Source: Cyanobium sp. PLM2.Bin73
GTDB lineage: Bacteria; Cyanobacteriota; Cyanobacteriia; PCC-6307; Cyanobiaceae
Direction of reading: 5' to 3'
NCBI GenBank assembly: GCA_007694915.1
Contig: REEV01000055.1
Location: 1-45,024, forward strand
DNA length: 45,024 nt
Shown here: in pieces, positions 8,140 through 33,349 of the stretch
How the letters are laid out: the number at the start of each line of letters is the position of its first letter
How positions within the stretch are numbered: the first letter of the stretch is position 1
Notes under the pieces: model-generated
What the model was told of the DNA's origin: nothing
Database searches by the model: none
What the model saw: the letters and a program-made list of their open reading frames with translations, nothing else
Program-made: the position numbers and the translations under genes

Positions 8140-8586
8140 TTAGGCAGAGGGCAGCGAAGCGGACTGGCCCGCCGCTTCAACGGCCTCGCTGGCCGTGCGC
8201 CGCTGGCGGCGCTGGCAGTCGGGGCAGAGGCCGTAGAACTCCAGGGTGTGGAACAGGGGCAGGTAGCCCCGCAGTTCCTCGCCGCTGAGCTCCAGGGCAT
8301 GCACCGGACAGTGCTCCAGGCGGTGGGTCTGCCCGCAGTCCACACAGGTGAGGTGGTGTTCGTCGCATTCGGTGGGGGCGAACAGGGCCTCGCCGCTGGG
8401 CAGATGGCGGCAGCGCACCCGGCCCCACTGCTGCAGCTGGCGTAGATGGCGGTACACGGTGGCCAGGCCCATGGGGGTGGCGCTGGCCCGCAGGCGGGCG
8501 TGCAGATCCTGGCCCGAGAGCTCGCGGCCGGCGCGGCGCAGGGCCTCCAGCAGTTGTTCCTGGCGGGAGCTGAGTTTGGGAGCCAC
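8140..8586 (-). CDS. zur: Fur-family zinc regulator, probably Zur
   Basis: A 148-aa DNA-binding repressor of the Fur family: winged helix with the recognition segment GLATVYRHLRQLQ (residues 40-52), then the HHLTCVDCG block (C81, C84) and FYGLCPDC (C121, C124), the four structural-zinc cysteines. The HH and later His/Glu residues would form the regulatory site. The GTG at 8586 is preferred because it starts the usual VAPKLSSRQ helix; an upstream GTG at 8646 would add 20 untypical residues and overlap the preceding gene. Zur rather than Fur is inferred from neighbours: zinc importers, COG0523 genes and many matching operators surround it. It is probably the last-but-one cistron of the operon starting at 12914. 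Confidence 0.85.
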   Translation of the reverse strand: MAPKLSSRQEQLLEALRRAGRELSGQDLHARLRASATPMGLATVYRHLRQLQQWGRVRCRHLPSGEALFAPTECDEHHLTCVDCGQTHRLEHCPVHALELSGEELRGYLPLFHTLEFYGLCPDCQRRQRRTASEAVEAAGQSASLPSA

Positions 8587-8627
8587 GGGGACCAGGGCGG
8601 ATCGGTGGGCCAAGCACTGGGGCCGTT

Positions 8628-16614: not shown

Positions 16615-16845
16615 TCAGGGTGCCGGGCTGTCCCTCCAGCAATAAAACTCGAGGGCATGGCCGTCACAGAGGCTGCAGCCATGGCAGCGCTCGGGGCGGG
16701 GCAGCCGTTGAACCCGGCCCTTGCGCTCCAGCAGGTTCAGCATCCCCCTGAGGGCGTCGGCCGAGACCCCCAGGCTCGCTTCCATCTGCGTGAGCGAGGC
16801 TGTGTTGTGCTCACGCAGATAGTCCTGAAGACCCTGCAGGATCAC
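16615..16845 (-). CDS. feoC: FeoC-like winged-helix protein with cysteine cluster
   Basis: A 76-aa protein with the FeoC helix-turn-helix (MILQGLQDYLREHNTASLTQ, then DALRGMLNLLERKGRVQRL) followed by Cys residues in CHGCSLCDGHALEFYCW. The cysteine loop may carry an Fe-S cluster, as proposed for other FeoC proteins. Its ATG overlaps the feoB stop (ATGA), so it is the third gene of feoA-feoB-feoC. It probably modulates FeoB activity or stability. Confidence 0.85.
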   Translation of the reverse strand: MILQGLQDYLREHNTASLTQMEASLGVSADALRGMLNLLERKGRVQRLPRPERCHGCSLCDGHALEFYCWRDSPAP

Positions 16846-19223: not shown

Positions 19224-19872
19224 GGTGGGTTACCGCAATCATCAACATGTCTGCCTCCTGTTTTCGCAACATCAGTGAAAAGCCGCGCACCCGCAGCTCC
19301 ACCGGATCGCCCATGGGGGCATGGCGGGTGACCTCGAATTGTGTACCCGGTGTGAGGCCCATGGCCAGAAGCTTCTGGCGGTAACTCCTGGACCCATCCC
19401 GAAACCCTTCCACGCGTCCGCGGCTGCCAACGGGAAGGTGCTGCAGCCGCTCCGGGGTGGGATCGGTCAGGGAAGGTGCTGGATCCGGTGATCGGTCTGA
19501 AGGCAAAACCATGGCTTGAGGTGGTAACTCAGTGCGGCGACGGGCTGTCACAGGGCTGGTCTCGATTCCCGAGCTGCGAACTTCGATGGCCCGGCTCATG
19601 GCCCCGTCGAGCCCCAGCCTTGTGTTGGCGATTGAAATCAGAATGGAGTCGTCGTCGCCGCGCATCACCACCCGCAGTTCACTCCCCCGGTGGATCCCCA
19701 TGCTCACCAGCTTGTCCCGCAGGTCGCGGCTGGCTCGCACACTGACAACCCACACCAGTTCTTCGATGCGGGCTTCCGGGAGTGGGAAGCAGGTCTCTCG
19801 CAGGTCAGCGTTGGCGGCGGGCTTCCAGCCGAGACGCCAGCGCCGCCGTGGCTGGCCGCCGTTGGCAGGCAT
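19216..19872 (-). CDS. feoA: Two-domain FeoA protein
   Basis: A protein of about 218 aa with two FeoA (SH3-like) domains in tandem. The first (about residues 25-95) contains VSMGIHRGSELRVVMRG; the second (about 135-215) contains HLPVGSRGRVEGF, LLAMGLTPGTQFEVTRHAP and LRVRGFSLMLRKQEADMLMI. A proline-rich linker joins them. Most FeoA proteins have only one domain of about 75 aa. The start is uncertain: ATG at 19872 or 19929, or GTG at 20019; the shortest is given because nothing upstream looks like protein-family sequence. It overlaps feoB by 8 bases. Confidence 0.82.
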   Translation of the reverse strand: MPANGGQPRRRWRLGWKPAANADLRETCFPLPEARIEELVWVVSVRASRDLRDKLVSMGIHRGSELRVVMRGDDDSILISIANTRLGLDGAMSRAIEVRSSGIETSPVTARRRTELPPQAMVLPSDRSPDPAPSLTDPTPERLQHLPVGSRGRVEGFRDGSRSYRQKLLAMGLTPGTQFEVTRHAPMGDPVELRVRGFSLMLRKQEADMLMIAVTHHG

Positions 19873-20176
19873 GGCTGAGGAGGGCGACCCCCAGGCCGGG
19901 TGGTCACCGGGTCGGTTGCGGCCGTGCATCAACACGCAGCGGGGGGTGGCATGGGAATCACGGGAGGGTGAAGTCGCCGGCGGGACAGGAAGGCTTCTCA
20001 GTGCTAAGGGCTTCTCCACGCAGCCGCCGTCAAGGAGCTACCCAGGCACGTAGCGAATGGCACCCGTGGAGGTGCGTGCCAGGTGTCCTGTGGCAACGCC
20101 GCCCGCCGACGCACCTCCGGGCCAGCGGCCCTCAGCGTCCAGGTCGTGTCCTGTGCCGGCTGAAAGGCCGCTAGAA

Positions 20177-20191
20177 CAGGAACGATTCCCA
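20177..20191. promoter_or_regulatory. Weak Zur-box-like repeat before COG0523 gene 2
   Basis: CAGGAAC-G-ATTCCCA fits the 7-1-7 pattern with four mismatches to the consensus, and ends 13 bases before the ATG of the second COG0523 gene. Position and gene type support it, but alone it would not be convincing. Confidence 0.5.
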
Positions 20192-20204
20192 CTCCAGACC
20201 CGGC

Positions 20205-21188
20205 ATGGCCTTCTCCTCCGCCGTTCCCGCCGGCGAACGCCTGCCGGTGACCGTGCTCACCGGCTACCTCGGCGCCGGCAAAACCACCCTGCTCAATCGG
20301 ATCCTCACCCATGAGCACGGCCTGAAGGTGGCGGTGATCGTGAATGAATTCGGTGAGGTGGGCATCGACAATCAGCTGGTGATTGATGCCGACGAAGAGA
20401 TCTTCGAGATGAACAACGGCTGCATCTGTTGCACCGTGCGCGGCGATCTGATCCGCATCATCGGCAATCTCATGAAGCGCCGTGATCGCTTCGACCACCT
20501 GGTGATCGAAACCACTGGCCTGGCCGATCCCGCCCCCGTGATCCAGACCTTTTTCGTGGATGAGGATCTGCGCGATGAGCTGCGGCTGGATGCCGTGGTG
20601 ACGCTGGTTGACCTCAAACACGTGGAGCAGCACTGGGATACGGAAGAGGTACAGGAGCAGCTGGCCTTTGCCGATGTGCTGGTGCTCAACAAGAGTGATC
20701 TGGTCGACGAATCAGCACTCCTGGCGATCGAGCGTCGCGTGCGCGCCATCAACCCCGTGGCTCGCATGCTTACCAGTGAGAACGCTGATGTGCCGATGCA
20801 GCACCTGTTGGGTGTTGAAGCCTTTGAGCTGGAGCGGGCCCTGAGCCTCGATCCGGGCTTTCTGGTGGACGAGCACGCCCATGAGCACGACGATGCAGTG
20901 GGTTCACTGGCCCTGGTGGAGGAGCGCCCCATGGATCTCGACAAGCTGGGCAGCTGGATCTCGGATCTGGTGAGCAGCCGCGGTCCGGATCTGTTCCGGA
21001 TGAAGGGCATCATCCAGCTGGCCGGCAAGAACGAGCGCTATGTGTTGCAGTCGGTGCACATGCTGATCGACGGCGATTTCGATCGCCCCTGGAAGCTGGG
21101 TGAGCGGCGGCGCACTGAATTTGTGATCATCGGCCGCGATCTCGATGCCGATGGCCTGCGCGCGGGCTTCCACGCCTGCGTGGCCTGA
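20205..21188 (+). CDS. COG0523 (CobW-like) GTPase, copy 2
   Basis: A 327-aa G3E GTPase: Walker [10 protein letters not shown] (20-28), GCICC with C73-x-C75-C76, [10 protein letters not shown] and NKSD. The metal loop is short (EHAHEHDD near 224-231) compared with the His-rich copy at 6955. The CobW C-terminal domain covers about 245-325. It is followed after 7 bases by a WD40 gene, so the two are co-transcribed. Likely role: metal chaperone, zinc by context; which client it serves is unknown. Confidence 0.92.
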
Positions 21189-21195
21189 ACAGTCG

Positions 21196-22299
21196 ATGGC
21201 ACAGGCAGCTCCCCTGGTGCGTGAGCTGCTCTGCGGTGATCTGCAGCAGCCGATCACGGCCCTGGCCTGGTCAGCGGATGGTGAGTTCCTGGCGATCGCC
21301 AGCGCCGGTGGTGAACTGCTGCTGCTCGACTTCCGCGCCGGCTGCGAAGAGCTGCTGCGCGGCGACCACGACAACAGCCTCGATGTGATCGGATTCAGTG
21401 CCGACGGCCAGTTTCTGATGGCCGCTGGTCAGGGCGGTGAGGTGCTGCTGTGGGAACTGGGGGGCACGGGGGTGCGGCCGCTGGCCATGGATCCCATGCC
21501 CCTGGGCTGCGGATGGATCGATGCGGCGGCCTGGCAGCCAGGTGGCCAGCTCCTGTCGGTGGCGGCCGGGCGCGAGGTGAGGCTCTGGGATGGGGGCAGC
21601 CGCCAATGGCGTGAGCAACCGTTGACTATGCCTGGCACTATCCAAGCCCTGACCTGGAGCGCCGATGGGGTGCAGCTGGCGGCCAGTTGCCACGGCGAGC
21701 TTGTGCTGTGGCAGCCCTGCCTGGATACCCCACTGGATCCGCCGCTGCGCCATGCAATTGGGTCTGCCGGTCTGGCGCTGGCATTTTCACGGCTAGGGCA
21801 TCATCTGGCTTGTGGCCTGCTGGATCGCTCCTTGCTGCTGTGGCCACAGGAGTGCCAAGGCCAGCCTTGGCAGTTCAGCGGCTTTCCCGCCAAGGTGCGC
21901 CAGCTGGCGTGGAGTGATCAGCCTGGGCGGTTGGCGCCGCTGCTGGCCAGCGCCTCGGCAGAGGCTGTGATCCTGTGGACGCAGGTGCAGCAGGGCTCTA
22001 AGGCCTGGCAACCAGAACCGTTGCTCTGGCATGAGAAGCGCGTCAATGCATTGGCCTTTGCGCCCGGGAGCACCTTGTTGGCCAGTGCCTCCAGCGATGC
22101 CACCGTGGCGCTCTGGGATGGGCGCGGTCGGCTGATGCAGCCGATCGAAGGGCAGGGAGCTGGGTTCAATTCACTGGCCTGGCGCCGGGACGGCCGGCAC
22201 CTGGCGGCGGGTGATGCCCAGGGGCGCTGGTGGCTCTGGCCGGTGTCGGTGCCGGTGCGTGAGCGTCAGCGCAGTTCTGCCGGGAGCGGTTTTGGCTGA
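21196..22299 (+). CDS. WD40-repeat protein 1 (eight repeats)
   Basis: A 367-aa protein made almost entirely of eight WD40-type repeats, each ending in LW/LLW-like strands (for example [41 protein letters not shown]). No signal peptide is present, so it is cytoplasmic. It starts 7 bases after the COG0523 gene and is homologous along its length to the WD40 protein at 25147. No enzymatic domain is visible. A scaffold or client-recognition role with the GTPase is an inference. Its 3' end overlaps the extended yidD frame on the other strand. Confidence 0.85.
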
Positions 22300-22527
22300 T
22301 GGCAAGAGGCGGTACTGGGTCGTACCCCCGGGATGCAGCGGATGGCAGCGGCCCAGCCGGCGGAGGGCCAGCCAGCAGCCACACCAGGGTCCATGGCTCT
22401 GAATGGCTTCAATGGCGTATTGGGACCAGCTGGGGGTGAAGCGGCAGTTGGGCCCCGGCAGTGGGCTGATCAGGATCTGATAGCTGCGGATCAGGAGCAA
22501 CAGGAAACGCGTCGAGACGACAACCAT
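22171..22527 (-). CDS. yidD: YidD-like membrane insertion factor, C-terminus frameshifted
   Basis: The N-terminal 70 codons match YidD: amphipathic helix [20 protein letters not shown], then [20 protein letters not shown] and [12 protein letters not shown]. The family's usual continuation GYDPVP is found in the next frame, immediately after a run of five G (minus strand) near 22330; a sixth G would restore it. The open frame therefore runs on with unrelated residues to 22171, overlapping the WD40 gene. In addition the normally conserved Cys of the PTCSQYA motif is Trp here. The ATG at 22527 is the best start. YidD assists YidC-dependent insertion. Confidence 0.6.
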
Positions 22528-22534
22528 GGCGATC

Positions 22535-23874
22535 TCAAGGGTTCGCAGGGGTTGGAGAGGTGCTGCAACGGCTGGCCTTGCCATCGGCCACCGGCACCCC
22601 GGCCTCGATCAATTGTCGCCGCAATTGATCCGCCAGCTGGAACTCGCTGGCTTGGCGAGCCCGTTGGCGGCGCAGGTGCAACTCGGCGATCGTTTCCTTC
22701 GACAGCCTTACCTCCGATGGAGTTGCCTGCCGGTGTGCTTGATGCAGCGCGGCCAGCGCCTGGTGGGGCTCCTGCTGCAGCAAGCCGAGCAGCTGGCCTG
22801 AGGCCAGCAGGCTTGCACTGAGGGCCTCCAGCACGATCGAATCGGGGCCGCTCTCGTCAGCGCTGATGCGGTGTGTGTCGCCAGGATCAGCACTGGTGAG
22901 GGCCCGGTAAAAAGTCGTGAGCGTGCGCTTCGCCTGCTCGAGCCGCTCCTGATTCCAGTCCAGTGGTTGGCGGTAATGGCTCGCCAGCAGGGCCAGACGG
23001 ATAGCTTCGCCGGGAGTCTGCTGGAGCAGATCCCTTACCAGCACGACGTTGCCGAGGGATTTCGACATCTTCTGTACCGCCACGGTGACGAAGCTGTTGT
23101 GCATCCAGGTGTGGCAGTAGGGCAAACCGGTGGCGGCACAGCCCTGGGCGATCTCATTCTCGTGATGGGGAAAGATCAGATCCTGGCCACCCCCATGGAT
23201 GTCGATCGGGAAGCCCAGGTGCCGCCTGATCATGGCCGTGCATTCCACATGCCAACCAGGTCGGCCACGACCCCAAGGACTCTCCCAGCCCGGCAGCTCG
23301 GGGCTTGAAGGTTTCCAGAGCACGAAATCCATGGGATTGCGTTTGAACGGTGCCACTTCCACACGGGCGCCGGCGCGCATCGCCTCCGGCGAGCGGCCGG
23401 AGAGCAGGCCGTAGCTGGCGAAGCTGGTCACCTCGAAAAGGACGTGGCCAGCCGCCTCATAGGCATGGCCCCTTCGCAGAAGCTGGTTGATGAGATCCTG
23501 AATGTCCCCGATGTGCTCGGTAACGCGGGGCTCCCGATCCGGTGGCATCACCTGGAGGGAGCGCATATGAGCCTGATACGCGGCAATCGTGCGCTCAGTA
23601 ATCGTGCGAATGGGCACCCCCGAAGAGGCAGCCGCCGCATTGATCTTGTCATCCACATCGGTGAAATTGCGCACATAGAGCACCTGCCGGAAGGCGTGGC
23701 GCAGCAAGCGCACCAACACATCAAATACAACGGCCGGCCTGGCATTGCCGATATGGGGCAAGTCATAGACGGTGGGGCCGCACACATAAAGCGTCACCCG
23801 GTCAGGCTGCTCCAGTCGCAGGGGAACGTGCGCCGGCTCAGGCTGTCGTGCAGTTGGATCGTGAGGGCAGTCAT
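22535..23874 (-). CDS. cysS: Cysteinyl-tRNA synthetase, apparent 1-bp frameshift near 5' end
   Basis: A class I synthetase that charges tRNA-Cys. Motifs: [16 protein letters not shown] (HIGH box), [18 protein letters not shown] and KMSKSLGN. The four zinc ligands of the family (Cys of YVCG, Cys of WHVEC, His and Glu of HHENE) are intact. Translation must begin at the ATG at 23874 (TGATG overlap with the upstream gene), giving [18 protein letters not shown], but the frame shifts at a run of four C (minus strand, 23821-23824); one more C joins it to [15 protein letters not shown] and gives 446 aa. The C-terminus lacks the common EDxxxGTxW end. Whether it is the only cysS copy cannot be told here. 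Confidence 0.85.
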
Positions 23875-24605
23875 CAGTTTTTTCTTGTCTCCGGCAGCAA
23901 GGAGGAGTGATGGTGTGAAATTTTCCACTCACCATCCTCCAACACATAGATGAAGCTGTAGCGGGCCTGGGCACTGCTGCCATTGGCAAAACGAAAGGTG
24001 TAGAGCCCCGCGTCCTGAAGCATGTTGCAGCCAATCAGGATTTCCCGCTGGCTGATTTCACCATGGGGCTGCTTTTCAAGAAAGTGGCTGAAGTAATCGA
24101 CGATAGTGTCGTGGTCGGTTCGGGGCTCATTCGAGAGCGTGGGAAGTAACACGGCATCGCGGCTGTAGAGGCGAGCTACTCGCTCCGGATCCTGGCTCTG
24201 CAACGCCTTGTTCCAGCGCTCAAACAAGGACTGAACATCGCTCTGGCTGATCAGGGCGCAGCCGCTCGGCCCGTCGCCCGCCAGCGATGGCTGGCGGGAT
24301 TCGAGCAATTCAATCTCCAGCCAGATCAGCCCGTTGCGGGGAAGGAAGGGATGGCCCACCAGGAAGGGCGGTCGCTCGCGAGGCCCCACGCGCCAGCGTC
24401 TCAGCGTGCCCGGCTTCATGGAGGCCAGCTCCGCTTCCAGCCAGGGCGAAAGGACGCCCTGGCCCAGGGCCAGAGAGAGGAGTTGACGTTCTGTGCGGCG
24501 TCTACCGCTGAGATCTGTGGCATGGAGCGCCACGGTCAGGACTGGCGCAGACCCTGCAGGGGCGATGGGGTCCTGCCCCTGCCTTGAGGGAGTTGTGCGC
24601 TGCAT
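23874..24605 (-). CDS. FKBP-like plus NTF2/SnoaL-like fusion protein
   Basis: A 243-aa protein. Residues about 45-103 resemble a degenerate FKBP domain (SPWLEAELASMKPGTLRRWRV, then NGLIWLEIELLE). Residues about 118-240 have the NTF2-like fold of the CaMKII-association/SgcJ-EcaC group (LFERWNKALQSQDPERVARLY, then YSFIYVLEDGEWKISHHHSSLLP, core only: EWKISHHHSS). No signal peptide. It is coupled to cysS by TGATG and sits behind a Zur box shared with the divergent WD40-2 operon. The function is unknown; whether the FKBP-like part isomerises prolines is doubtful, since the aromatic pocket is not evident. Confidence 0.75.
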   Translation of the reverse strand: MQRTTPSRQGQDPIAPAGSAPVLTVALHATDLSGRRRTERQLLSLALGQGVLSPWLEAELASMKPGTLRRWRVGPRERPPFLVGHPFLPRNGLIWLEIELLESRQPSLAGDGPSGCALISQSDVQSLFERWNKALQSQDPERVARLYSRDAVLLPTLSNEPRTDHDTIVDYFSHFLEKQPHGEISQREILIGCNMLQDAGLYTFRFANGSSAQARYSFIYVLEDGEWKISHHHSSLLPETRKN

Positions 24606-24638
24606 CGCCGGATGGACCAGAGTCTGTGCCGTACTCTA

Positions 24639-24653
24639 TGAGAATGATTCTCG
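24639..24653. promoter_or_regulatory. Zur box between FKBP-NTF2/cysS and WD40-2 operons
   Basis: TGAGAAT-G-ATTCTCG is a 7-1-7 repeat with one mismatch, in the 66-base gap between divergent starts at 24605 and 24672. It is suited to control both operons. Confidence 0.88.
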
Positions 24654-24671
24654 TTCGCCAATGTGGAGCCC

Positions 24672-25154
24672 ATGTCGCGGCCCTCGGCGCAAAGGCTGGG
24701 CCATCTGCTGATGGCCTCTGACCCGTGGGACTTTTCTGAGCAGGACCCCTCGGAGCAGAAGCCTTCAGCCCAGGAGCAGGCCCGCTTCGAGCAGATGCAC
24801 GATGGATTGCTACGCCGCCAGGGCAGCCTGAGGGGTCAGCAAGAGCAGCTCTGGGCCTGCATCCAGGCGATGCAGAGCCTAACGGCGTCCGTTGTTCAGC
24901 AGTTGACCAGCGATCCACCCTCTCTGGAGCGGCGGATCATCGGACGGCGGCAGGTTCTCAGCGATCTGAGGGCTGTGCAGGCCCGGTTGCTATCGGTGGA
25001 AGTTCTGCTGGAGCGCACCGGTGAGGTGGAGTGGCCGCAGCTGGTCGAGCGCTTGGCCCAGGAGCTCGTCGGCGAGATGGCGCCGGATCCGCAGTGCGAG
25101 CAGCGGATGCGGCTCAATCAGCTGCTGGAGCGCAGCAGCAGCCGTGATGATTGA
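24672..25154 (+). CDS. Helical protein of unknown function upstream of WD40-2
   Basis: A 160-aa cytoplasmic protein I do not recognise. It is rich in Gln, Glu, Arg and Leu, with predicted long helices (about 36-75 and 85-120, for example QVLSDLRAVQARLLSVEVLL) and only two Cys. The ATG at 24672 is preferred to the GTG at 24663; both lie right after the Zur box (24639-24653). It overlaps the WD40-2 start by 8 bases, so the two are translationally coupled and their products probably meet. It may be the partner bound by the propeller. Confidence 0.7.
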   Translation: MSRPSAQRLGHLLMASDPWDFSEQDPSEQKPSAQEQARFEQMHDGLLRRQGSLRGQQEQLWACIQAMQSLTASVVQQLTSDPPSLERRIIGRRQVLSDLRAVQARLLSVEVLLERTGEVEWPQLVERLAQELVGEMAPDPQCEQRMRLNQLLERSSSRDD

Positions 25155-26244
25155 GCTCTCACGGCCGGCACTACCGACGGACCAGGGGCCGGTGACACAA
25201 CAACTGCGCGGCAGGGTTCAGGGCTTTGTCACGGGGTTGGCCTGGGCTCCCCATGCTCCCCAATTGGCTATCGCCAGCGCTGCTGGGGATTTCAGCCTTG
25301 TTGATTTCGCCGCCGGCGTGGACTGGCCCCTGCAGGAAGCCAACGACTCCGGCAGTCAGGGCTTCGACGCCTTGGGATTCTCCAGCTGTGGCCGCTGGCT
25401 GGCCGCGGGCGGCGAGGGTGGTGCGCTTTCGCTTTGGCGCCTGGACGGTGACGCGCCGGTGCTTCTGTTCGTACCGGCAATCGGGGGCTGGATTGATAAG
25501 TTGGCCTGGCAACCGGATGGCCCCCTGTTGGCCGTGGCACGGGGTGCCGAGATCTGGATCTGGCACGGCGAGGACCAGGTCTGGTTGCCGCCGCTGTGCA
25601 GCCCAGGCGCTGCGGTGATGGCCCTCAGCTGGAGCCCAGCGGGCGATCAACTGGCGGCGGGCACAGGGCAGGGTGTGTGGATCTGGAGCTTGCCGCTGGG
25701 CTCACCGCAAGCCGCAGGGCCCCTGCAGCTGGAGACGGGTTCGGCCGTGCTGCAGCTGGTGTGGGGGGTGGATCCCCCTTGGCTGGTGGCTGGTTTGATG
25801 GATCGGCGCTTGGTGCTGTGGCGGGATCTGCAGCAACCCATGCTTGGCGTCGGTGACTTGCCCGGCAAGATCCACGCCCTCGCGTTGTCGCGTTTACCCA
25901 ATGGCCAGCAGGCCTTGCTGGTGGCAGCCGCGGAGGCCGCAGTGGTGTGGTCGGGGCAGGGGGATGACCCTGAGGCCTGGAACGCCGTGCTGCTGCCCTT
26001 TCATCTGGATCGGATCTCAGCGCTGGCCTGTGGCCCTGCCCAGGCCCCGATCGTCACAGCCTCGCGTGATGGCACCGCGGCCCTGTCGAGCGAAACAGGA
26101 TCCCTGCTGCAGGTGCTCGAGCTCGATGGCCAGGCGCTCAGCAGCGTGGCCTGGCGATCCGACCGCAAGGCCCTGGCGGCTGGCGGTGAGGAGGGTGGCT
26201 GGGTGATGTGGCCCCTCGATCCGGACGAGGGGACTAGGCCATGA
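25147..26244 (+). CDS. WD40-repeat protein 2 (eight repeats)
   Basis: A 365-aa protein of eight WD40-like repeats, paralogous over its whole length to the one at 21196 (shared order of blades; compare [20 protein letters not shown] with FSSCGRWLAAGGEGGALSLW, and [13 protein letters not shown] with LVAGLMDRRLVLW). Here the seventh repeat is degenerate. No signal peptide. It overlaps the helical gene by 8 bases behind a strong Zur box. Zinc-responsive expression of two such propellers suggests a scaffold in metal allocation, but no experimental role is known to me. Confidence 0.85.
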   Translation: MIELSRPALPTDQGPVTQQLRGRVQGFVTGLAWAPHAPQLAIASAAGDFSLVDFAAGVDWPLQEANDSGSQGFDALGFSSCGRWLAAGGEGGALSLWRLDGDAPVLLFVPAIGGWIDKLAWQPDGPLLAVARGAEIWIWHGEDQVWLPPLCSPGAAVMALSWSPAGDQLAAGTGQGVWIWSLPLGSPQAAGPLQLETGSAVLQLVWGVDPPWLVAGLMDRRLVLWRDLQQPMLGVGDLPGKIHALALSRLPNGQQALLVAAAEAAVVWSGQGDDPEAWNAVLLPFHLDRISALACGPAQAPIVTASRDGTAALSSETGSLLQVLELDGQALSSVAWRSDRKALAAGGEEGGWVMWPLDPDEGTRP

Positions 26245-26268
26245 GCGCAATACCCCCGAAGGCTGGCG

Positions 26269-26979
26269 TTATGCGAACCCCCGGCCCCTTGATCCAGGCT
26301 GCTGGTCCAATGTCCTGAACTCAATCCTGTCGCTGCCTGGGTCGTAGAGGGTGTAGTGGAGGCCTGAGCCAATGCCGATCACTTTGCGCTGGGGTACCAC
26401 CTGCTGAAGCTGCCGTTCACCTTCCAGATCGCGCACGTGGGAATCGATGCCCCCACCCGTGAGATCCACACTGAACTGCTCGCCGCTGCGCGCCGTGAAC
26501 AGGCGGTTCACATCCATGCGTGTGAGGCGATCCAACAGCAACAGTGGGGAACTGCCGGTGTTGAGGCTGTCGCCCACGTCGGCTGAGCTGCCGTGCAGCA
26601 GGGCGCAGTCGAGCTCAATGAAGCCGAACTGCAGCGCTGCCAGCCACTGCAGATGCCCGGGATCAACCGCTTGCAGAAGGGCATCAACCGCCGCCTCACC
26701 CTGGCTGAGCCTCAGGGCATCAGCTCGGCGGTCGCCGCGGAATGCCCTTTCGGCGAGAAGCTGATCTTCCCACCATCCATAGATGCACTGGGGTTGCAGC
26801 TCTCCTCGGCGTGGACTCTGCAGCCGATCCAGTAAGGCATTGGCATCCCGGTCAGGACCGATCAGATTCCCCAGCACAAACAGGGTGTCTACACGGCCCA
26901 CCTGCCGCAGGTCGCGTTGGATCGCCTCATAGACCTCCAGCTCGCCCTGCAGCCCACTCACCAGTGCCCAGCGTGCCAT
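26269..26979 (-). CDS. Metallophosphoesterase-fold protein lacking metal ligands
   Basis: A 236-aa homologue of the adjacent phosphoesterase in which the catalytic motifs are replaced: SDxHG reads SGLQG (residues 8-12), GDxxGYGP reads GNLIGPD (37-43), GNHD reads GWWED (68-72), and no GHTH is found. The VHGS motif survives as LLHGSSAD. Fold-level similarity (VDTLFVLGNLIGPDRDANAL) is clear, catalysis is very unlikely. It starts on the last base of the upstream stop (TGATG), so it is made together with the Cys-substituted paralogue, perhaps as a heterodimer partner or ligand sensor. It is the last gene of the operon that begins at 28627. Confidence 0.78.
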   Translation of the reverse strand: MARWALVSGLQGELEVYEAIQRDLRQVGRVDTLFVLGNLIGPDRDANALLDRLQSPRRGELQPQCIYGWWEDQLLAERAFRGDRRADALRLSQGEAAVDALLQAVDPGHLQWLAALQFGFIELDCALLHGSSADVGDSLNTGSSPLLLLDRLTRMDVNRLFTARSGEQFSVDLTGGGIDSHVRDLEGERQLQQVVPQRKVIGIGSGLHYTLYDPGSDRIEFRTLDQQPGSRGRGFA

Positions 26980-27797
26980 CAGCGCTCACACACGTGGCTG
27001 GCGTCATCGGCCCGCTCGGCATACTCAAAACCTTGGCTGAGTCGCCAGGCGAACACCGGCGGCAGGCCAGCTTCAACGATGGCCTGGCAGGTGCGTTCCA
27101 GGTCATACGGCACCTCGCGGATCTCGACGCTGCCCGTTTCCTCATCGTGAATCACGTAGGTGGCGTTGGTGTTGCCGTGGCGCGGTTCACCCACCGAGCC
27201 GGCGTTGATGATGCGGCGCACGGGCAGGGGCATCTGCCGCTCTGCTGGTGACGTGTGATCTGTGGAGCTCTGGATGCGCACGCGGATGGATCCATCCCGC
27301 AGATCACGCACGTAGGGGCGGTGGGTGTGGCCGCAGAACAGGGTGTCGGCACCTGCTGTCTCTACCCGTTCCAGCGCGGCAAAGGCATCCATGTCGGGTA
27401 GCAGGTATTCGTGCTGGCTGTTGGGACTGCCATGGACGAACAGCAGCCGGTCCCGCCGAAGAGTCATGGGCAAGCTGGCCAGAAAGACCTTGTTGGCCTC
27501 ACTCAGCTGGTCGGCGGTCCACTGGTGAGCCAGATGCCCCCGCCTCTCCGCCAGCTGGGAGGGGTAGCTGCACTCACAGGAGTTGAGCCCCTCGATGATG
27601 TCCTCATCCCAGCAGCCCTGGCAGCTGGGGATGGCGCGCTCACGCACCAGCTCCACCACCTCATTGGGCTGAGGCCCGTAGCCCACCAGATCACCCAGGC
27701 AGGTGATGGTGGTGATGCCGAGCTGGTCGATGTCCGCCAGCACCGCTTCCAGAGCGGCGAGGTTGGCGTGCAGGCAAGACATCACGGCGTGGGTCAT
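26979..27797 (-). CDS. Metallophosphoesterase with Cys-substituted metal site
   Basis: A 272-aa calcineurin-like phosphoesterase of the YfcE/ApaH-like type. Conserved: GDLVGYGPQPNEV (Asp36), VHGSPNSQHE, CGHTHRPY and NAGSVGEPR. Changed: the first motif SDxHGN reads SCLHAN (Asp to Cys8, His10 kept), and GNHD reads GCWDED (Asn to Cys62, His to Trp63), followed by Cys74 and Cys76. Two metal-binding positions are thus cysteines, which would favour Zn2+ or redox-type chemistry over Mn/Fe. Substrate is unknown. It lies between the COG0523-like gene and the ligand-less paralogue in an operon with a perfect Zur box. Confidence 0.85.
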   Translation of the reverse strand: MTHAVMSCLHANLAALEAVLADIDQLGITTITCLGDLVGYGPQPNEVVELVRERAIPSCQGCWDEDIIEGLNSCECSYPSQLAERRGHLAHQWTADQLSEANKVFLASLPMTLRRDRLLFVHGSPNSQHEYLLPDMDAFAALERVETAGADTLFCGHTHRPYVRDLRDGSIRVRIQSSTDHTSPAERQMPLPVRRIINAGSVGEPRHGNTNATYVIHDEETGSVEIREVPYDLERTCQAIVEAGLPPVFAWRLSQGFEYAERADDASHVCER

Positions 27798-27841
27798 GGA
27801 GTGGTGGCGCTGGGGTGGGTGCGTCGGCGGGGCGGTGGGGA

Positions 27842-28627
27842 TCAGCTGGCCGCACTCGGCTGGGGAACCGGGAGCCGCAGGGCCGCCTGCTGCAGCTCCA
27901 GGGCGGCATCGCTGAGCAGGCAGTCGGACAGCGTGGTCTCGATCCCCCCTGAAGCGAGGGCCTTGCCCTGAACCACCAGCCGTGAGAGGCGCGCTGGCCG
28001 CCCCTGTGGAGGGGCCACCGCAGTCAGCGGCTCAAACTGGGAGCCGCTCTGGCTCACCATCCAGTTGAAGAAGAAGCCACGGCCATCGGGCAGGTTGAAC
28101 AGGGCCTTGGCCCGATAGACATCGCCGTAGGCACCGTTCACCAGCTCAAACCAGAAACTGCTCAGGCTGGCTGGATCCCACACAGTCCCGCTGAGGTTGT
28201 GCCACCACGACTCCAGCCGGCGGAAATCGAGGGTGTCCTGGGCGGGTAGCTCCCGGTCCCGGCCGAAGTGCAGGTGAGCGTCGGGCACGAGGTGGTGGGC
28301 GTCCAGCGCGGGAATGAGTCGGCGGTCGATGCCATCCGGCCCGGAGGCGGAGGGCGGCTGGAACTGCGGCACCTCGATCAGGGCTAGCAGGTTGTCGGGA
28401 CGGGGCGCCAGGGCATGGTCCGGGTTGGCCAGATCGAGCAGGTTATCCACCCGGTCCTGCAGCACAGCGGCATCGATGCCGCCGTCGCGGGCCTGCTGCT
28501 GGCCCTCGTCACCGAAGCCGCCGAGGCGCAGGTAGGCCCTCGGCCCGCGGTGGGCCTGGAGCCGCTGGCAGATCCAGGTGGTTTTTCCGCACCCGGGGGG
28601 GCCGGAGATCAGCAAGGTGTGGCCCAT
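27842..28627 (-). CDS. COG0523-related P-loop protein without CxCC motif
   Basis: A 261-aa P-loop protein: Walker A GPPGCGKTT (residues 9-17), and a C-terminal CobW-like domain (about 165-235, with YGDVYRAKALFNLPDGR and RLSRLVVQGKAL). The middle is short and lacks the CxCC metal motif, the ETTGLADP block and a clear NKxD, so GTP specificity is doubtful. It resembles a stripped COG0523 protein more than any other family I know. It is first in an operon with two phosphoesterase homologues and 70 bases downstream of a perfect Zur box (28698-28712). An insertase or chaperone for the phosphoesterases is a testable idea. Confidence 0.75.
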   Translation of the reverse strand: MGHTLLISGPPGCGKTTWICQRLQAHRGPRAYLRLGGFGDEGQQQARDGGIDAAVLQDRVDNLLDLANPDHALAPRPDNLLALIEVPQFQPPSASGPDGIDRRLIPALDAHHLVPDAHLHFGRDRELPAQDTLDFRRLESWWHNLSGTVWDPASLSSFWFELVNGAYGDVYRAKALFNLPDGRGFFFNWMVSQSGSQFEPLTAVAPPQGRPARLSRLVVQGKALASGGIETTLSDCLLSDAALELQQAALRLPVPQPSAAS

Positions 28628-28697
28628 GACGACTCCCTAAAGCGCTCAAGCCCGGCGTCCAGCGCAGCCCCGGCGTCGGGCTGAGCCGGTCAGGGCC

Positions 28698-28712
28698 TGA
28701 GAACGGTTCTCA
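28698..28712. promoter_or_regulatory. Perfect Zur box before P-loop/phosphoesterase operon
   Basis: TGAGAAC-G-GTTCTCA is a perfect 7-1-7 palindrome, 70 bases upstream of the 28627 start. Together with the box at 28793 it makes a two-operator divergent control region. Confidence 0.9.
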
Positions 28713-28792
28713 TTATGAATGATGGGCTGCTGCCCCGCCGCCGCGCTGGCCTTGGTTGCCCTGGGGAGCGGGGCCGCGCGCCTAAGGTGCGC

Positions 28793-28807
28793 TGAGAATC
28801 GTTCTCA
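28793..28807. promoter_or_regulatory. Zur box before znuC-znuB copy 1
   Basis: TGAGAAT-C-GTTCTCA matches both half-site consensus sequences fully (one non-paired position) and ends 32 bases before the preferred znuC start at 28840. It overlaps an ATG at 28807, arguing against that codon as the start. Confidence 0.9.
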
Positions 28808-28839
28808 TGGGCTCTGGATGGCAGATGGCGGGGCGGCCC

Positions 28840-29616
28840 ATGGCTGAGCTGGTGCTGCAGGTGAGCGGACTGCGGGTGCTGCGCGACGGTGTGCCCGTGG
28901 TGGATGACGTGAGCTTTGCCTTGCCCGCCGAGAGCGACACGGCCCTGGTGGGCCCCAATGGCGCCGGCAAGAGCACCCTGGTGGCGGCCGTGCTGGGGTT
29001 GCTGCCCCGCCAGGCCGGCGAGGTGCGGCTGCTGGGCCAGCCCCTCAGCCCCCAGGGCCGCTGGCCCCGGTCCGTGCGCGCTCAGGTGGCCTACCTCCCC
29101 CAGAGCCTGGCGGTGGAGGGCCGGTTCCCCCTCACGGTGCGGGATTTTGTGGGTTTCGGCTTTGATCCGCCCGGCCCGCGCTGGCCCTGGCGGGGTGCGG
29201 AGCGGCGCCGCCAGGCGATCGAGCGGGCCCTGGAGCGCACCCAGTGCCGTGCCCTGGGCAGGCGCTTGATCAGCGAGCTCTCCGGCGGCCAGTGGAAGCG
29301 GGTGCAGCTCGCCTTCTGCGTGGTGCGGCCCCGCCGGCTGCTGGTGCTCGATGAGGCCCAGGCGGGCCTGGATGCCCCCTCCAGTGAGCGCTTTCAACAG
29401 CTGCTGCTGGATCTGCGACGCCAGGAGGGCTGGACCGTGCTGCAGGTGTCCCACGATCTGGAGATGGTGCGCCGCAGCTGCGACCAGGTGCTGTGCCTCA
29501 ACCGCCAGCTGCGCTGCAGCGGCAGCCCCGACCATGCCCTCAGTCCGCAGCGGCTGGCGGAGCTCTACGGCCCCGGCTATGTGCCCTACCAGCACCACCA
29601 CGCGCCCCTGTCCTGA
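28840..29616 (+). CDS. znuC: Zinc ABC transporter ATPase ZnuC (copy 1)
   Basis: A 258-aa ATPase: Walker A GPNGAGKST, Q-loop YLPQSLAV, signature LSGGQWKRVQLA, Walker B LLVLDEAQ (Ala-Gln after the catalytic Glu is unusual but shared with the second copy) and SHDLEMV. The C-terminus is His-rich (YQHHHAPLS). In-frame ATGs at 28807 and 28825 lie in or next to the Zur box, so 28840 is preferred. The stop overlaps the permease start (TGATG). ZnuA is not adjacent; it is encoded at 12978. Confidence 0.9.
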   Translation: MAELVLQVSGLRVLRDGVPVVDDVSFALPAESDTALVGPNGAGKSTLVAAVLGLLPRQAGEVRLLGQPLSPQGRWPRSVRAQVAYLPQSLAVEGRFPLTVRDFVGFGFDPPGPRWPWRGAERRRQAIERALERTQCRALGRRLISELSGGQWKRVQLAFCVVRPRRLLVLDEAQAGLDAPSSERFQQLLLDLRRQEGWTVLQVSHDLEMVRRSCDQVLCLNRQLRCSGSPDHALSPQRLAELYGPGYVPYQHHHAPLS

Positions 29617-30443
29617 TGGCCGCTGTTGAGGCTCTGCCGGCGCTTCTGGCGCTGCCGTTCATGCAGCGGGCCCTGCTGGGCGGGCTGCTCACCGGAGCCC
29701 TGGGCGGGCTGCTGGGCAGCGTGGCCGTGCTGCGTCAGCTCTCCTTCTTCAGCGACGCCCTCGGCCATTCGGCCCTGCTCGGCATCAGCCTGGGGATCCT
29801 GCTGGGGGTCAATCCCACCCTGGTGCTGGTGCCCTTTGCCGTGCTGTTCGCCCTGCTGGTGAACCAGCTGGTGCAGCGCAGCCGCCTGCCCACCGATGCC
29901 CTGCTGAACATCGTGTATTCCACCTCCCTGGCCTTCGCCGTGGTGGCCCTGAGCCTGGTGGACACCTACCGCGGCAACATCCAGCAGCTGCTCTTCGGTG
30001 ACATCCTCGGCATCAGCTGGCCGGATCTCTGGGTGATCGCCGGCCTGGCCGTGCTGGCCCTGGGCTACCTGATCGTGAGCCTCAGGGCCCAGGTGCTGCT
30101 CATCCTCAACGACGACCTGGCCGGGGCCTTTGGCGTTCGCATCAGCGCCCACCGGCTGGCCTTCATCGTGCTGCTGGCCGTGGTGGTGGCGGTGTCGATC
30201 AAGGCCGTGGGGGTGCTGCTGATCAGCGCCTTCGTGGTGATCCCCGCCTGTGCGGCGCGGCTGGTGAGCCGCCGCTTCTCCACCTACGTGCTCACGTCGG
30301 TGCTGCTGGGGGGCAGTTGCGCCGTGCTGGGCCTGCTCGGCTCCGGGCTCACCAACCTGCCCTCTGGCCCCTGTGTGGTGATCGTGCAGTTCGCCGGGTT
30401 CCTGCTGGCCCTGCTCTGGAGCCGGCTCGTGGTGCCCGCCTGA
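29616..30443 (+). CDS. znuB: Zinc ABC transporter permease ZnuB (copy 1)
   Basis: A 275-aa ABC-3 family permease with eight or so membrane segments. Characteristic blocks: GSVAVLRQLSFFSDALGHSA, ALLNIVYSTSLAFAVVAL and SIKAVGVLLISAFVVIPACA. Closely similar along its length to the permease at 36515. It forms a two-gene unit with znuC and would accept zinc from the single ZnuA. Confidence 0.92.
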   Translation: MAAVEALPALLALPFMQRALLGGLLTGALGGLLGSVAVLRQLSFFSDALGHSALLGISLGILLGVNPTLVLVPFAVLFALLVNQLVQRSRLPTDALLNIVYSTSLAFAVVALSLVDTYRGNIQQLLFGDILGISWPDLWVIAGLAVLALGYLIVSLRAQVLLILNDDLAGAFGVRISAHRLAFIVLLAVVVAVSIKAVGVLLISAFVVIPACAARLVSRRFSTYVLTSVLLGGSCAVLGLLGSGLTNLPSGPCVVIVQFAGFLLALLWSRLVVPA

Positions 30444-30458
30444 TTCAGTCGCCGGATT

Positions 30459-30731
30459 TCAGTCGCCGGCCTCGATCGTCATCCACAGGGTGTGGTGGGC
30501 ATCCACCACCTCCAGGGCCTCGAGATGCTCGGCCGTGAGGGCGCGGGCATCGTCCAGCCGCCACTGCAGGCTGAGCTTTGACAGCCGCTGCATGCACCAG
30601 TCGCGCACCTGGGTGAGCTGCAGGGTGCGATTGAGGTCGGTGGATTCCATCGGCCCGTGGGCGGCGGGGTGTTTCACTGTGCTGGAGGGCCAGCGTTGCA
30701 GCTGATCCGATTGCACAAGGGCGTGTGTCAT
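30459..30731 (-). CDS. Small conserved-looking protein, unknown function
   Basis: A 90-aa (or 63-aa from the ATG at 30650) soluble protein I cannot assign. The C-terminal part looks helical (DLNRTLQLTQVRDWCMQRLS, then WRLDDARALTAEHLEALEVV). The codon pattern fits a gene, and it is convergent with znuB. Just before its stop, an imperfect 13-base direct repeat (NTTCAGTCGCCGG) marks the end of both genes. No regulatory site is evident upstream. Confidence 0.5.
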   Translation of the reverse strand: MTHALVQSDQLQRWPSSTVKHPAAHGPMESTDLNRTLQLTQVRDWCMQRLSKLSLQWRLDDARALTAEHLEALEVVDAHHTLWMTIEAGD

Positions 30732-30818
30732 TTGTTGCGACGCAGGGTGGCTGGTGCCTTTGATCAGACCCTGTTCACAACGTCTTTCTGACCTGGCATC
30801 AGTACGATCCGTTGGAAG

Positions 30819-30849
30819 AGATCATGGAATAACAAAGATCATGGAATAA
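30819..30849 (+). repeat. Tandem 17-bp direct repeat in ferritin-feoB2 leader
   Basis: AGATCATGGAATAA occurs twice with 17-base period (30819-30832 and 30836-30849), inside an AT-richer, gene-free stretch (30732-30975) upstream of the ferritin gene. A shorter repeat CTGAACTT follows at about 30875-30895. A regulator site pair or promoter duplication is possible; no Zur box occurs here. Confidence 0.5.
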
Positions 30850-30987
30850 ACCGCCCTTGCAGCTGGGTTTAGGGCTGAACTTCAACTTCTGAACTTAACC
30901 GGCCGAGCTTCAGCCACCGCCTGTTACAAGGCTTCATCGCGCGCCCATCGCGTGCGTACCGTTTCTTCAGCCGTAATGCGCATCCCG

Positions 30988-31512
30988 ATGCAGGACCTCA
31001 CCCAGGCCATCAACAACCATCTCGCCTCCGAATTCCAGGCCAGCCACACCTATCTGGCCATGTCGATCTGGCTGCGGGAGAAGGATCTGGCCGGCTTCTC
31101 CCAGTACATGCTCGAGAAGAGCAATGAGGAGCGGGGCCATGCCGCCCGCATGATCTCCTATCTGGTGGACTGTGATGAGCCGGTGGAGCTGCCCACCATC
31201 GAGGCTCCCGAGCGCAGCTGGCCGTCGGTGCAACAGCTGTTCGATCGGGTGTTCGAGATGGAGAAGCAGGTCACCGCCTCGATCAACCGCCTCTACTCCC
31301 TGGCCGAGCAGGCGGGGGAGCGCAGCGCCTCGGCGATGCTCGATTGGTTTGTGAACGAGCAGATCCAGGAGGAGGCCGAGGCCCGCTTCGTGCTCAAGCG
31401 CCTGCGCCTGGCCGGCGACAACAGTGCCGCCCTGCTGCTGCTGGATCAGCAGTTTCTCGAGGGCAACGCCCTGGCCCACGTGAAGACGGGCATCAGTGGG
31501 GGCGGCCAGTGA
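30988..31512 (+). CDS. Ferritin (non-haem type, FtnA-like)
   Basis: A ferritin of about 174 aa. Ferroxidase residues are visible: Glu15 (ASEFQASHTY), Glu48 and His51 (NEERGHAARM), a Glu in the VFEMEKQV helix and EQIQEEAE in the fourth helix. It would oxidise Fe2+ and store iron. In-frame starts are ATG at 30976 or 30988 or GTG at 30952; MQDLTQAINNHL begins the usual first helix. It is 7 bases upstream of feoB2, so iron uptake and storage are co-transcribed. Sequence differs strongly from the second ferritin (33616), so they are not recent duplicates. Confidence 0.88.
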   Translation: MQDLTQAINNHLASEFQASHTYLAMSIWLREKDLAGFSQYMLEKSNEERGHAARMISYLVDCDEPVELPTIEAPERSWPSVQQLFDRVFEMEKQVTASINRLYSLAEQAGERSASAMLDWFVNEQIQEEAEARFVLKRLRLAGDNSAALLLLDQQFLEGNALAHVKTGISGGGQ

Positions 31513-31519
31513 CGATGCC

Positions 31520-33349
31520 ATGACCCAGGCTCCAGCCCTCACGGTGGCCCTGGTGGGCATGCCCAACACCGGCAAGTCCACCCTCTACAACCGCCTCACG
31601 GGCGGCAACGCGGTGATCGCCAACTGGCCCGGGCTCACCGTGGAGCTGCTGTGTGGGCCGATGCCGGCGGATCGGCGGGGGCGGGGCTACACCCTGGTGG
31701 ATCTGCCGGGCATCCACGATCTCACGGGCAGCAGTGAAGATGAAGCGGTGGTGCAGCGCTTCCTGCGCCACACGCCTCCGGCGCTGGTGGTGGTGGTGGT
31801 GAACGCCAGCCAGATCGCCCATCAGCTGCGCTTTGTGCTGCAGATGGGCCAGCAGGGCATTCCCCTGGTGGTGGCCCTGAACATGAGCGACGAGTCGCGC
31901 CAGCTGGGCATCGCCATCGACCACCAGCGGCTCAGCGCTGAGCTGGGTCTACCGGTGCTGCCAATCAGCGCCAAGCGCAACCAGGGCATTCACGAGCTGA
32001 TCGACGCCCTGCACCAGCTCGGCGAGCGGCTCCCAGCGGCAGGTGAGCAACCCGAGCCTGCCAACGGATCCCTGCGAGCTGCGCAGGATCTCGATGCCCG
32101 GGGGGACGCCCTGGCCGCCGCTGCCGTCACCCTGCCGGAACGGCTGATCAACCGCGGCACCCGCCGGGCCGATCGCCTGCTGATGCATCCCGTGGTGGGG
32201 CTGGTGGTCTTCCTGGTGATCGTGCTGGCGATGTTCCAGCTGCTCTACGCCGTGGGCACGCCGCTGCAGGACCTGCTCGGCCAACTGATCGACTGGACCC
32301 AGATCGCCGTGCTGGAGCCGCTGCTGCAGGCCGCCGGCGCTCCGGAATTCCTGCGCGGCTTTCTGGTGGATGGGGTGTGGCTGGGCGTGGGCACGGTGGC
32401 CACGTTCCTGCCGATCATCTTTCTCTTCTACGTGATCATGGCGGTGGTGGAGGATTCGGGTTATCTGCCCCGCGCCGCCTTCCTGATGGATGGCTTCATG
32501 CGCTGGCTGGGGCTCGATGGCCGGGCCTTCGTGCTGCAGGTGATGGGCTTCGGCTGCAACGTGCCCTCGATCCTGGGCACCCGGGTGATCCGGGATCGCG
32601 GCATGCGCCTGCTGGCCATGCTCTGCATTCCCTTCTCGCTCTGCCAGGCCCGGCTCACGGTGTTCCTCTTCATGGCGGCGGTGTTCTTCCCGCGGCCCTG
32701 GTGGGCACCCGGACTGGTGGTGTTCAGCTTCTACGTGCTCAGTTTCCTGGCGGCGGTGATCACCGGCCTGGTGTTTCAGCGCGCCTTCCCCAGTCGCGAG
32801 GCCTTGATCCTCGAACTGCCGCCCTACCGTTCCCCGAGCGTGGCCACGATCCTGCGGCGCGGCTGGACCGCGATGCTCAATTTCCTGGTGACCACGCGGG
32901 TGTTCATCGTGGTGGGGGCCGCGGCCATCTGGCTGCTCACCCACCTGCCGCCGGGGGCCGCGCAGGGGTCGGGCGCCACCATCGCCGATGGCATCGGGGC
33001 TTTCTTCCAGCCCGTGCTGGCACCGATCGGCATGAATCCATCGCTCACCGTGTCGCTGTTCTTCGGCTTGATCGCCAAGGAGATCCTGCTGGGAGCGATG
33101 GCGGTGATCTATGCCACCAGCCAAACCGATCTGGGCGGCGTGATCAGCCAGACGATCACGCCCCTGCAGGCCCTCAGCTTCATGACCTTCGTGCTGCTCT
33201 ACACCCCTTGCCTGGGCACGGTGGCGGCGCAACTGCAGGAATCGAAGAGCCGCCGGTTCACCCTGTTGTCGCTGGGATGGTCGTTGGCTTTGGCCTGGAT
33301 CCTGGCACTTGGGGTGTATCAGGTGGGCGTCAGCCTGACACCAGGCTGA
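31520..33349 (+). CDS. FeoB-like ferrous iron transporter (copy 2, short form)
   Basis: A 609-aa FeoB homologue, about 180 residues shorter than copy 1. G domain: GMPNTGKST (13-21), DLPGIHDL, NMSD. The GDI-like linker is short and Ala/Glu-rich. Membrane part has both gate motifs in modified form (MGFGCNVPSILGTR and SLCQARLTVFLF). A role in Fe2+ uptake is likely, but the shifted gates might alter selectivity (for example Mn2+). It follows the ferritin by 7 bases, and its end is base-paired with that of the convergent feoA2. Confidence 0.88.
   Translation: MTQAPALTVALVGMPNTGKSTLYNRLTGGNAVIANWPGLTVELLCGPMPADRRGRGYTLVDLPGIHDLTGSSEDEAVVQRFLRHTPPALVVVVVNASQIAHQLRFVLQMGQQGIPLVVALNMSDESRQLGIAIDHQRLSAELGLPVLPISAKRNQGIHELIDALHQLGERLPAAGEQPEPANGSLRAAQDLDARGDALAAAAVTLPERLINRGTRRADRLLMHPVVGLVVFLVIVLAMFQLLYAVGTPLQDLLGQLIDWTQIAVLEPLLQAAGAPEFLRGFLVDGVWLGVGTVATFLPIIFLFYVIMAVVEDSGYLPRAAFLMDGFMRWLGLDGRAFVLQVMGFGCNVPSILGTRVIRDRGMRLLAMLCIPFSLCQARLTVFLFMAAVFFPRPWWAPGLVVFSFYVLSFLAAVITGLVFQRAFPSREALILELPPYRSPSVATILRRGWTAMLNFLVTTRVFIVVGAAAIWLLTHLPPGAAQGSGATIADGIGAFFQPVLAPIGMNPSLTVSLFFGLIAKEILLGAMAVIYATSQTDLGGVISQTITPLQALSFMTFVLLYTPCLGTVAAQLQESKSRRFTLLSLGWSLALAWILALGVYQVGVSLTPG

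Follow-up and report, generated by a model that had tools for sequence, protein, structure and literature searches.

A conserved three-gene unit of cyanobacteria with a cysteine-substituted metallophosphoesterase is tied to the zinc-starvation response

Car1 is reportedly a binuclear metallophosphoesterase that works through a thioredoxin-coupled Cys74-Cys76 disulfide mechanism at metal-bound arsenate. An arsenic-operon metallophosphoesterase about 40% identical to Car1, the arsenate reductase of Rufibacter tibetensis, carries both Cys74 and Cys76, the residues that Car1 reportedly needs to reduce arsenate (PMC12124457). In cyanobacteria, COG0523 genes preceded by Zur sites, which may or may not be of a stripped form, have been described for Prochlorococcus, Nostoc, and Cyanothece (Haas et al., 2009; PMC2770081), and in Synechococcus PCC 7002 hemB-II, folE-II, G0131, and G0132 were upregulated in a zur mutant and by the chelator TPEN, which chelates iron too (Ludwig et al., 2015; PMC4628125). 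Here we analyzed a stretch of 45,024 nucleotides from Cyanobium sp. PLM2.Bin73 (contig REEV01000055.1; hereafter, the window), in which three minus-strand genes code for proteins that each belong to or border a known superfamily: a stripped COG0523-like P-loop protein of 261 residues (COG; 27842..28627), a metallophosphoesterase of 272 residues (MPE; 26979..27797), and a degenerate, divergent paralogue of the latter with 236 residues (PAR; 26269..26979). We found that these genes, collectively the trio, are a real, conserved, and patchy cyanobacterial unit tied to the zinc-starvation response.

The three genes occurred together as a block. Among 339 sampled cyanobacterial genomes, MPE was detected in 79 (E ≤ 1e-60; 56–81% identity without counting the window). 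COG was detected in 83 (E 0.001), all 79 MPE genomes being among them; the corresponding Fisher test (P = 4e-73) overstates independence, the genomes being related by descent. Directly behind COG and on the same strand lay 78 of the 80 MPE copies, the pair being 20 kb apart in one remaining case and on two contigs in the other. The four genomes with COG only held decayed sets, with a broken MPE plus PAR in G419, fragments of all three genes in G125, a COG interrupted by a stop codon in G329, and a broken COG in G381. One genome (G184) had two trio copies, on two contigs (L115 and L231). Within the family Cyanobiaceae, MPE matches were obtained in 46/121 genomes (71–85% identity, not counting the window). 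A second, weak match was seen in 37 of the 46 and was PAR wherever loci were checked. The order COG-MPE-PAR was found in 29/29 neighbour loci. Forty wider loci all contained COG and MPE, and 39 of them PAR, which was about 7 kb away in the fortieth; 20 loci fetched through COG matches contained MPE in 19 cases (all except L112) and PAR in 18. A contig search yielded 589 MPE relatives; beside the best 80 of these 589, COG was found in 79 cases and PAR in 74, some genomes being entered under two locus ids in this count and in the 140-locus box count given below. Of the six relatives without PAR, four had the contig end within ~400 bases of MPE. All of the best 80 were cyanobacterial records except two metagenome-assembled genomes labelled Spirochaeta and Blastopirellula, whose trio contigs (MPE 79 and 76% identical to that of the window, respectively) are probably cyanobacterial contamination; beyond these best 80, the trio may also occur outside cyanobacteria. 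Conservation excluded chance: with the thresholds applied, MPE identity was 56–85% throughout the phylum, and residues C8, C62, C74, and C76 were present in 60/60 MPEs. Both the joint occurrence of the genes and the conservation of the cysteines, proposed as checks by an earlier note made on this DNA from its letters, were thus confirmed.

The surroundings of the trio varied. In pairs of Cyanobiaceae loci with MPE DNA identity ≥ 85%, a shared flank of at least 500 bp was found in 9/148 cases upstream and 9/165 downstream, so the trio apparently travels, or persists, as one block in changing neighbourhoods. Some cyanobacterial plasmids carry the trio; a phage or plasmid origin was considered and rejected, the phage collection giving one match at 27% and IMG/VR two matches, both with canonical ligands.

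As the earlier note had described, the three genes share one strand behind a perfect Zur-type box. This box (TGAGAACGGTTCTCA, 28698..28712) is a perfect 7-1-7 palindrome matching the consensus used at 14/14 positions, and precedes the start codon of COG by ~70 bp. A second box (TGAGAATCGTTCTCA, 28793..28807; 14/14 to the degenerate consensus) touches the start of a znuC-type ATP-binding cassette (ABC) ATPase gene that diverges from the trio (28807..29616, plus strand; Pfam ABC_tran), whose product matched NCBIfam Mn/Zn transporter families with every score below cut-off. A znuB-type permease gene with uncertain start codon was also present (29535..30443, plus strand; Pfam ABC-3, E 1.3e-56). 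The window contained six sites at ≥ 13/14 vs. 0.05 expected under a Markov-1 model, and two at 14/14 vs. a mean of 0 in 100 Markov-1 runs. Across loci, a box of ≥ 12/14 was located within 250 bp of COG in 82/140 vs. 4.3 in mononucleotide shuffles, and one of ≥ 13/14 in 43 of 140 vs. 0.35. Among the 58 loci without a 12/14 box, 25 were preceded, at a distance of at most 1.5 kb, by COG0523, folE, hemB, or znu genes of the same strand, the trio there possibly being part of a longer operon.

Outside picocyanobacteria, the trio was often found among znuABC, hemB, thrS, folE, hisI, and full-length COG0523 genes, as in the orders hemB-znuA-znuC-znuB-COG0523-folE-COG-MPE-PAR (L110), znuA-COG-MPE-PAR (L104), and COG0523-COG-MPE-PAR (L032 and L066), and on plasmids it adjoined thrS, folE, hemB, hisI, or a zinc-binding protein gene. 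In locus L055, znuA, a His-rich secreted-looking protein, and a full COG0523 are followed by the trio on the other strand. The idea that synw0972-0973, which belong to the Zur regulon of WH8102 (PMC9337993), are the trio was weakened, not settled, because 0972 and 0973 may be the first two genes of an L055-type order.

On plasmid pAQ7 of PCC 7002 (L220, 4368-6139), COG is reduced to 147 residues and PAR to its last 130, MPE is gone, and a perfect box (TGATAATTATTATCA) lies between the COG remnant and the gene that diverges from it. G0129 and G0130 were not upregulated in the zur mutant, and the relevant passages of that article state that G0130 has no homologues and describe no trio (PMC4628125). 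By gene order, G0131 would correspond to the COG remnant and G0132 to the FAD protein. Comparison with the sister strain PCC 7117 suggests that G0129 and G0130 were not induced because the pAQ7 set has decayed, with COG and PAR cut and MPE lost; this decay in the model strain, unlike PCC 7117, may be why the trio was missed. Boxes of the Fur family resemble each other, and the window also holds feoB, ferritin-like genes, and an ArsP_1-type permease, so the trio could be thought to serve another metal or stress (iron, cobalt, cadmium, or arsenic) from Fur/PerR rather than Zur sites. This is very unlikely, as the recurrent neighbours are znuABC, hemB, thrS, folE, and COG0523, and the PCC 7002 locus was induced in the zur mutant and by TPEN, even though the latter is not specific for zinc (PMC4628125).

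MPE displayed a calcineurin-like fold (Pfam Metallophos_2, PF12850; E 2e-21). Its AlphaFold2 (AF2) model was a complete metallophosphoesterase fold (mean predicted local distance difference test, pLDDT, 87.1; predicted template modelling score, pTM, 0.85), less sure at the C74/C76 block (pLDDT 62) and in the tail with H268 and C270 (~50). The structures nearest to the model were 2gju, 1nnw, 3rqz, and 3qfm (SapH, named a diadenosine tetraphosphate [Ap4A] hydrolase in its PDB title), with Z of 27.1–29.6 and root-mean-square deviations of 2.1–2.6 over 219–236 residues. In this fold, MPE has SCLHAN in place of SDxHGN and GCWDED in place of GNHD. Position 8 (codon at 27774..27776, minus strand), which aligns with the first-site Asp of SDxH, was Asp in 9/9 outgroup MPEs and Cys in 60/60 cyanobacterial ones; position 62 (codon at 27612..27614, minus strand), aligned with the Asn of GNHD, was Asn in 9/9 and Cys in 60/60, respectively, and Trp63 replaces the GNHD His in the cyanobacterial proteins. 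H10, D36 (the bridging Asp of GD), C74, C76, H122 (the His of HGS), and H157 and H159 (both of GHTH) were likewise present in the 60 aligned cyanobacterial MPEs, and the NxGSVGEP stretch was kept. Ligands were assigned to metal sites 1 and 2 from established knowledge of the superfamily plus the alignment, according to which one predicted ligand of each of the two canonical sites is now Cys and the other five are kept. The earlier note had read Cys at both metal positions, plus C74/C76, in the window protein alone, and the 60 relatives bear this out. In all, 22 positions were invariant in the 60 cyanobacterial MPEs and absent from the nine outgroups; eight of these were Cys or His (C8, C62, H91, H129, H207, C237, H268, and C270), an enrichment over the composition of the protein (P = 5e-5) that counts H268 and C270 in a tail largely or wholly gapped in the outgroup. 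Apart from C8 and C62, these Cys and His residues are candidates for ligands that would restore a usual site from other positions, a case named by the earlier note as speaking against its reading.

One reading of these data is that MPE is a working phosphoesterase of Ap4A, nucleotide, or phosphodiester type with a Cys-ligated metal centre, which replaces a zinc-dependent hydrolase. The four nearest folds, the retention of D36, H122, H157, H159, and NxGSVGEP, and the frequency of zinc-enzyme paralogues in Zur regulons (PMC6103462) are consistent with it. Moreover, we rejected the idea that Trp63 proves loss of catalysis, because SapH carries GNWED. Nevertheless, all 60 cyanobacterial proteins have Cys at the two positions where the nine outgroup rows invariably show the ligands Asp and Asn, and the strict MPE-COG pairing would be left unexplained; we consider this reading unlikely.

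Origin of the Cys74-Glu75-Cys76 motif (codons at 27570..27578, minus strand) was different from that of C8 and C62. The nearest non-cyanobacterial relatives found were plasmid MPEs of Hymenobacter, Adhaeribacter, Rubrobacter, and others (35–39% identity to cyanobacterial MPE where measured, in these three genera), and the seven plasmid MPEs examined as outgroup were all beside arsenic genes. Five of them (from Hymenobacter, two from Rubrobacter, Paraclostridium, and Mucilaginibacter) had SDxH, GNYD, and a C-G-C pair aligned with C74/C76, starting at residue 74 in three and at 75 in two; the other two (from Flammeovirga and a second Mucilaginibacter protein) had GNHD and no C-x-C. A joint origin of the four cysteines was rejected, as the arsenic-operon relatives have C-x-C without Cys8 or Cys62. 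Because these proteins share the C-x-C yet keep Asp8 and Asn62, C74/C76 is the older, redox-type pair, and C8 and C62 are cyanobacterial additions. The Cys set that had been put forward as new is, therefore, only partly so: C8 and C62 are new in cyanobacteria, whereas C74/C76 is shared with arsenic-operon MPEs. Judged against the five arsenic-operon relatives, MPE possesses the Cys74/Cys76 pair of Car1 and lacks the canonical ligands Asp8 and Asn62. If Car1 works by the disulfide mechanism given above, the C-x-C pair of MPE and its two newer cysteine ligands would point into a single pocket.

These results make a thiol-redox enzyme of Car1 type the main rival explanation. At its metal pocket, MPE would then still switch C74/C76 from dithiol to disulfide and back under zinc starvation, with an oxyanion, a thiol, or a metal-bound species as substrate, and COG and PAR would regulate or deliver. 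The alignment of C-x-C in the five plasmid MPEs beside arsenic genes, the invariance of C74/C76 (60/60), and the requirement for both cysteines in arsenate reduction by Car1 (PMC12124457) point to this chemistry, and so does the co-induction of a FAD/NAD(P)-binding protein in PCC 7002 (PMC4628125). A FAD/NAD(P)-binding gene adjoins the trio in PCC 7117, relatives of it were near the trio in 5/20 loci, and in the window the FAD/NAD(P)-binding oxidoreductase gene (11640-12914, minus strand) has its own 13/14 box at 12930. On the other hand, the arsenic-operon relatives keep Asp8 and Asn62, lost in all 60 cyanobacterial MPEs, and three annotated cyanobacterial plasmid regions showed zinc-type genes and none named for arsenic. 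We regard this explanation as rather doubtful. The oxidoreductase gene of the window is followed by an ArsP_1-type permease gene (10669-11640, minus strand), 15 kb from the trio.

PAR gave no match in Pfam or NCBIfam. Its proposed descent as an MPE paralogue was corroborated by BLASTP (21%) and, over the whole length, by profile-profile alignment (probability 99.85, E 1.2e-30). The tree placed PAR together with the MPEs of cyanobacteria (99/92), at the end of a very long branch (2.78 changes per column); MPE formed its own clade only at 76/69, and the exact placement of PAR is unsure. In an alignment of 58 PARs (the L108 row was dropped, its best match being MPE itself), the equivalents of C8 and C62 were lost, as were the DxH His in 58/58, the first His of GHTH in 52/58, and the second in 58/58. 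The statement of the earlier note that PAR had lost every metal ligand did not hold, however, since the HGS His (H129 of PAR) was kept in 58/58, the window included, and the LGD Asp in 57/58, the window PAR alone having Asn there. A tandem of MPEs that parallels the MPE-PAR pair was observed in the arsenic operon of a Mucilaginibacter robiniae plasmid (L224, 3001-4493), the first with GNYD and C-x-C and the second with GNHD and without C-x-C. PAR as the counterpart of this second protein was not supported: the Mucilaginibacter protein keeps canonical ligands and PAR groups with cyanobacterial MPE.

The window COG matched Pfam CobW_C at 22.3 bits (cut-off 22), with weak P-loop matches, and the CobW_C domain was found in 19/21 members (E 0.01). 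A P-loop, GxxxxGK[TS], was present in 58/60 relatives and E85 was invariant (61/61). No CxCC metal motif was detected in the window COG or in any of 60 relatives, which agrees with the initial description of a P-loop and a CobW-type C-terminus without CxCC; the NKxD guanine motif was absent from the window COG and present in 1/60 relatives. With the AF2 model (pLDDT 87.7), Foldseek matches at E 0.001 were YjiA entries only (best 3.5e-6), YjiA being the nearest fold. The structural alignment with YjiA (Z 9.6 over 99 residues) and the profile-profile match to full COG0523 covered mainly the C-terminal domain. COG may work like COG0523 though failing membership of that family.

All these observations taken together led us to favour, with a probability of about 45%, a reading of the trio as a zinc-starvation-induced cytosolic metal-handling complex, as far as comparison of sequences and predicted models allows. 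The MPE pocket would have become thiolate-rich, tightly binding Zn(II) or another soft metal; COG, without the CxCC of COG0523, would act as a nucleotide-driven switch; MPE would provide the metal site missing in COG, the two forming a split metallochaperone; and PAR would be a non-catalytic partner shaping or stabilising MPE. Block conservation, and Zur-type boxes or zinc-gene runs in most loci examined, support a role in metal handling. A more detailed version, which we hold only tentatively and consider rather improbable, is a split zinc insertase or carrier in which a polynuclear metal-thiolate pocket (C8, C62, C74, C76, H10, D36, H122, H157, and H159) would be emptied and refilled by the CobW-like NTPase lacking a metal motif of its own; the ligand-poor twin would provide the scaffold, and the older redox pair, C-x-C, would gate the release of metal.

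Several facts weigh against a metal-handling complex. No MPE match at 1e-60 was obtained in 260/339 genomes, nor was there a match in 75/121 genomes of the family; the trio is patchy because three other genomes sampled from the genus of the window also lacked a match. Neither a 12/14 box nor an upstream zinc gene was found in 33/140 loci, at least 22 of these 33 being Prochlorococcus-type with sequences of only 10–11/14, such as shuffles yield too. Homology of the C-x-C to a reductase also points to redox chemistry. What Zur regulons are mainly known to contain is zinc-sparing paralogues (PMC6103462) rather than proteins that gain thiolates. Finally, PCC 7002 is without MPE, its COG and PAR are truncated, and the two genes that separate COG from folE showed no induction (PMC4628125); because this strain lost MPE, the published Zur induction covers a COG remnant and not an intact MPE.

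Other genes of the window showed similar boxes or metal-related functions. A FUR-family gene (8143-8646) is immediately followed by a full-length COG0523 gene (6958-8112; cobW plus CobW_C), both on the minus strand; a 13/14 Zur-type box occurs at 8121. Another 13/14 box, at 24639, is upstream of genes for a protein with SgcJ/EcaC, DUF4440, and CaMKII_AD-type domains and for cysteinyl-tRNA synthetase (22538-24653). Domains of these types include metal-free iota carbonic anhydrases, and the two genes are possibly a zinc-sparing pair. A metal island (14927-33349) comprises a second metal ABC transporter (14927-16614), feoB (16842-19223, minus strand), a second COG0523 gene (20205-21188), two WD40 genes, and putative ferritin-like (30952-31512) and FeoB-like (31496-33349) open reading frames named from their sequence.

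The trio is a discrete, testable three-gene unit kept together across cyanobacteria, including Prochlorococcus. Two known ligand positions of its metal site have been remodelled, and a mechanism has been proposed for its sister family; cytosolic zinc rationing and the clients of CobW-type proteins are open questions on which it bears. No description of it was found in the openly licensed literature of PubMed Central (PMC), where absence is weak evidence. If the trio handles zinc, it would be a metal-delivery system absent from the papers searched, in many hosts that live at very low zinc; if MPE is a redox enzyme, it would extend the recent report of a phosphoesterase turned reductase into zinc physiology.

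Compared with known systems, COG has in common with the COG0523/G3E metallochaperone GTPases (YjiA, CobW, and ZigA) the P-loop and the CobW_C domain, and differs from them in lacking CxCC (60/60) and NKxD (59/60). SapH (3qfm) and 3rqz are two of the closest solved folds that also resemble MPE in sequence; SapH shares the Trp of GCWDED, whereas neither SapH nor 3rqz has Cys8, Cys62, or C-x-C in the alignments. The Zur-controlled zinc-starvation cluster on pAQ7 of PCC 7002 has the same neighbours and box as the trio loci (PMC4628125) but has lost MPE. The Car1-type, arsenic-operon MPEs (Rufibacter, Hymenobacter, Mucilaginibacter, Rubrobacter, and Paraclostridium) resemble MPE in the fold and in the C-x-C at 74/76 or 75/77, whereas those examined keep Asp8, Asn62, and Tyr63 and sit among ars genes, unlike the cyanobacterial MPE.

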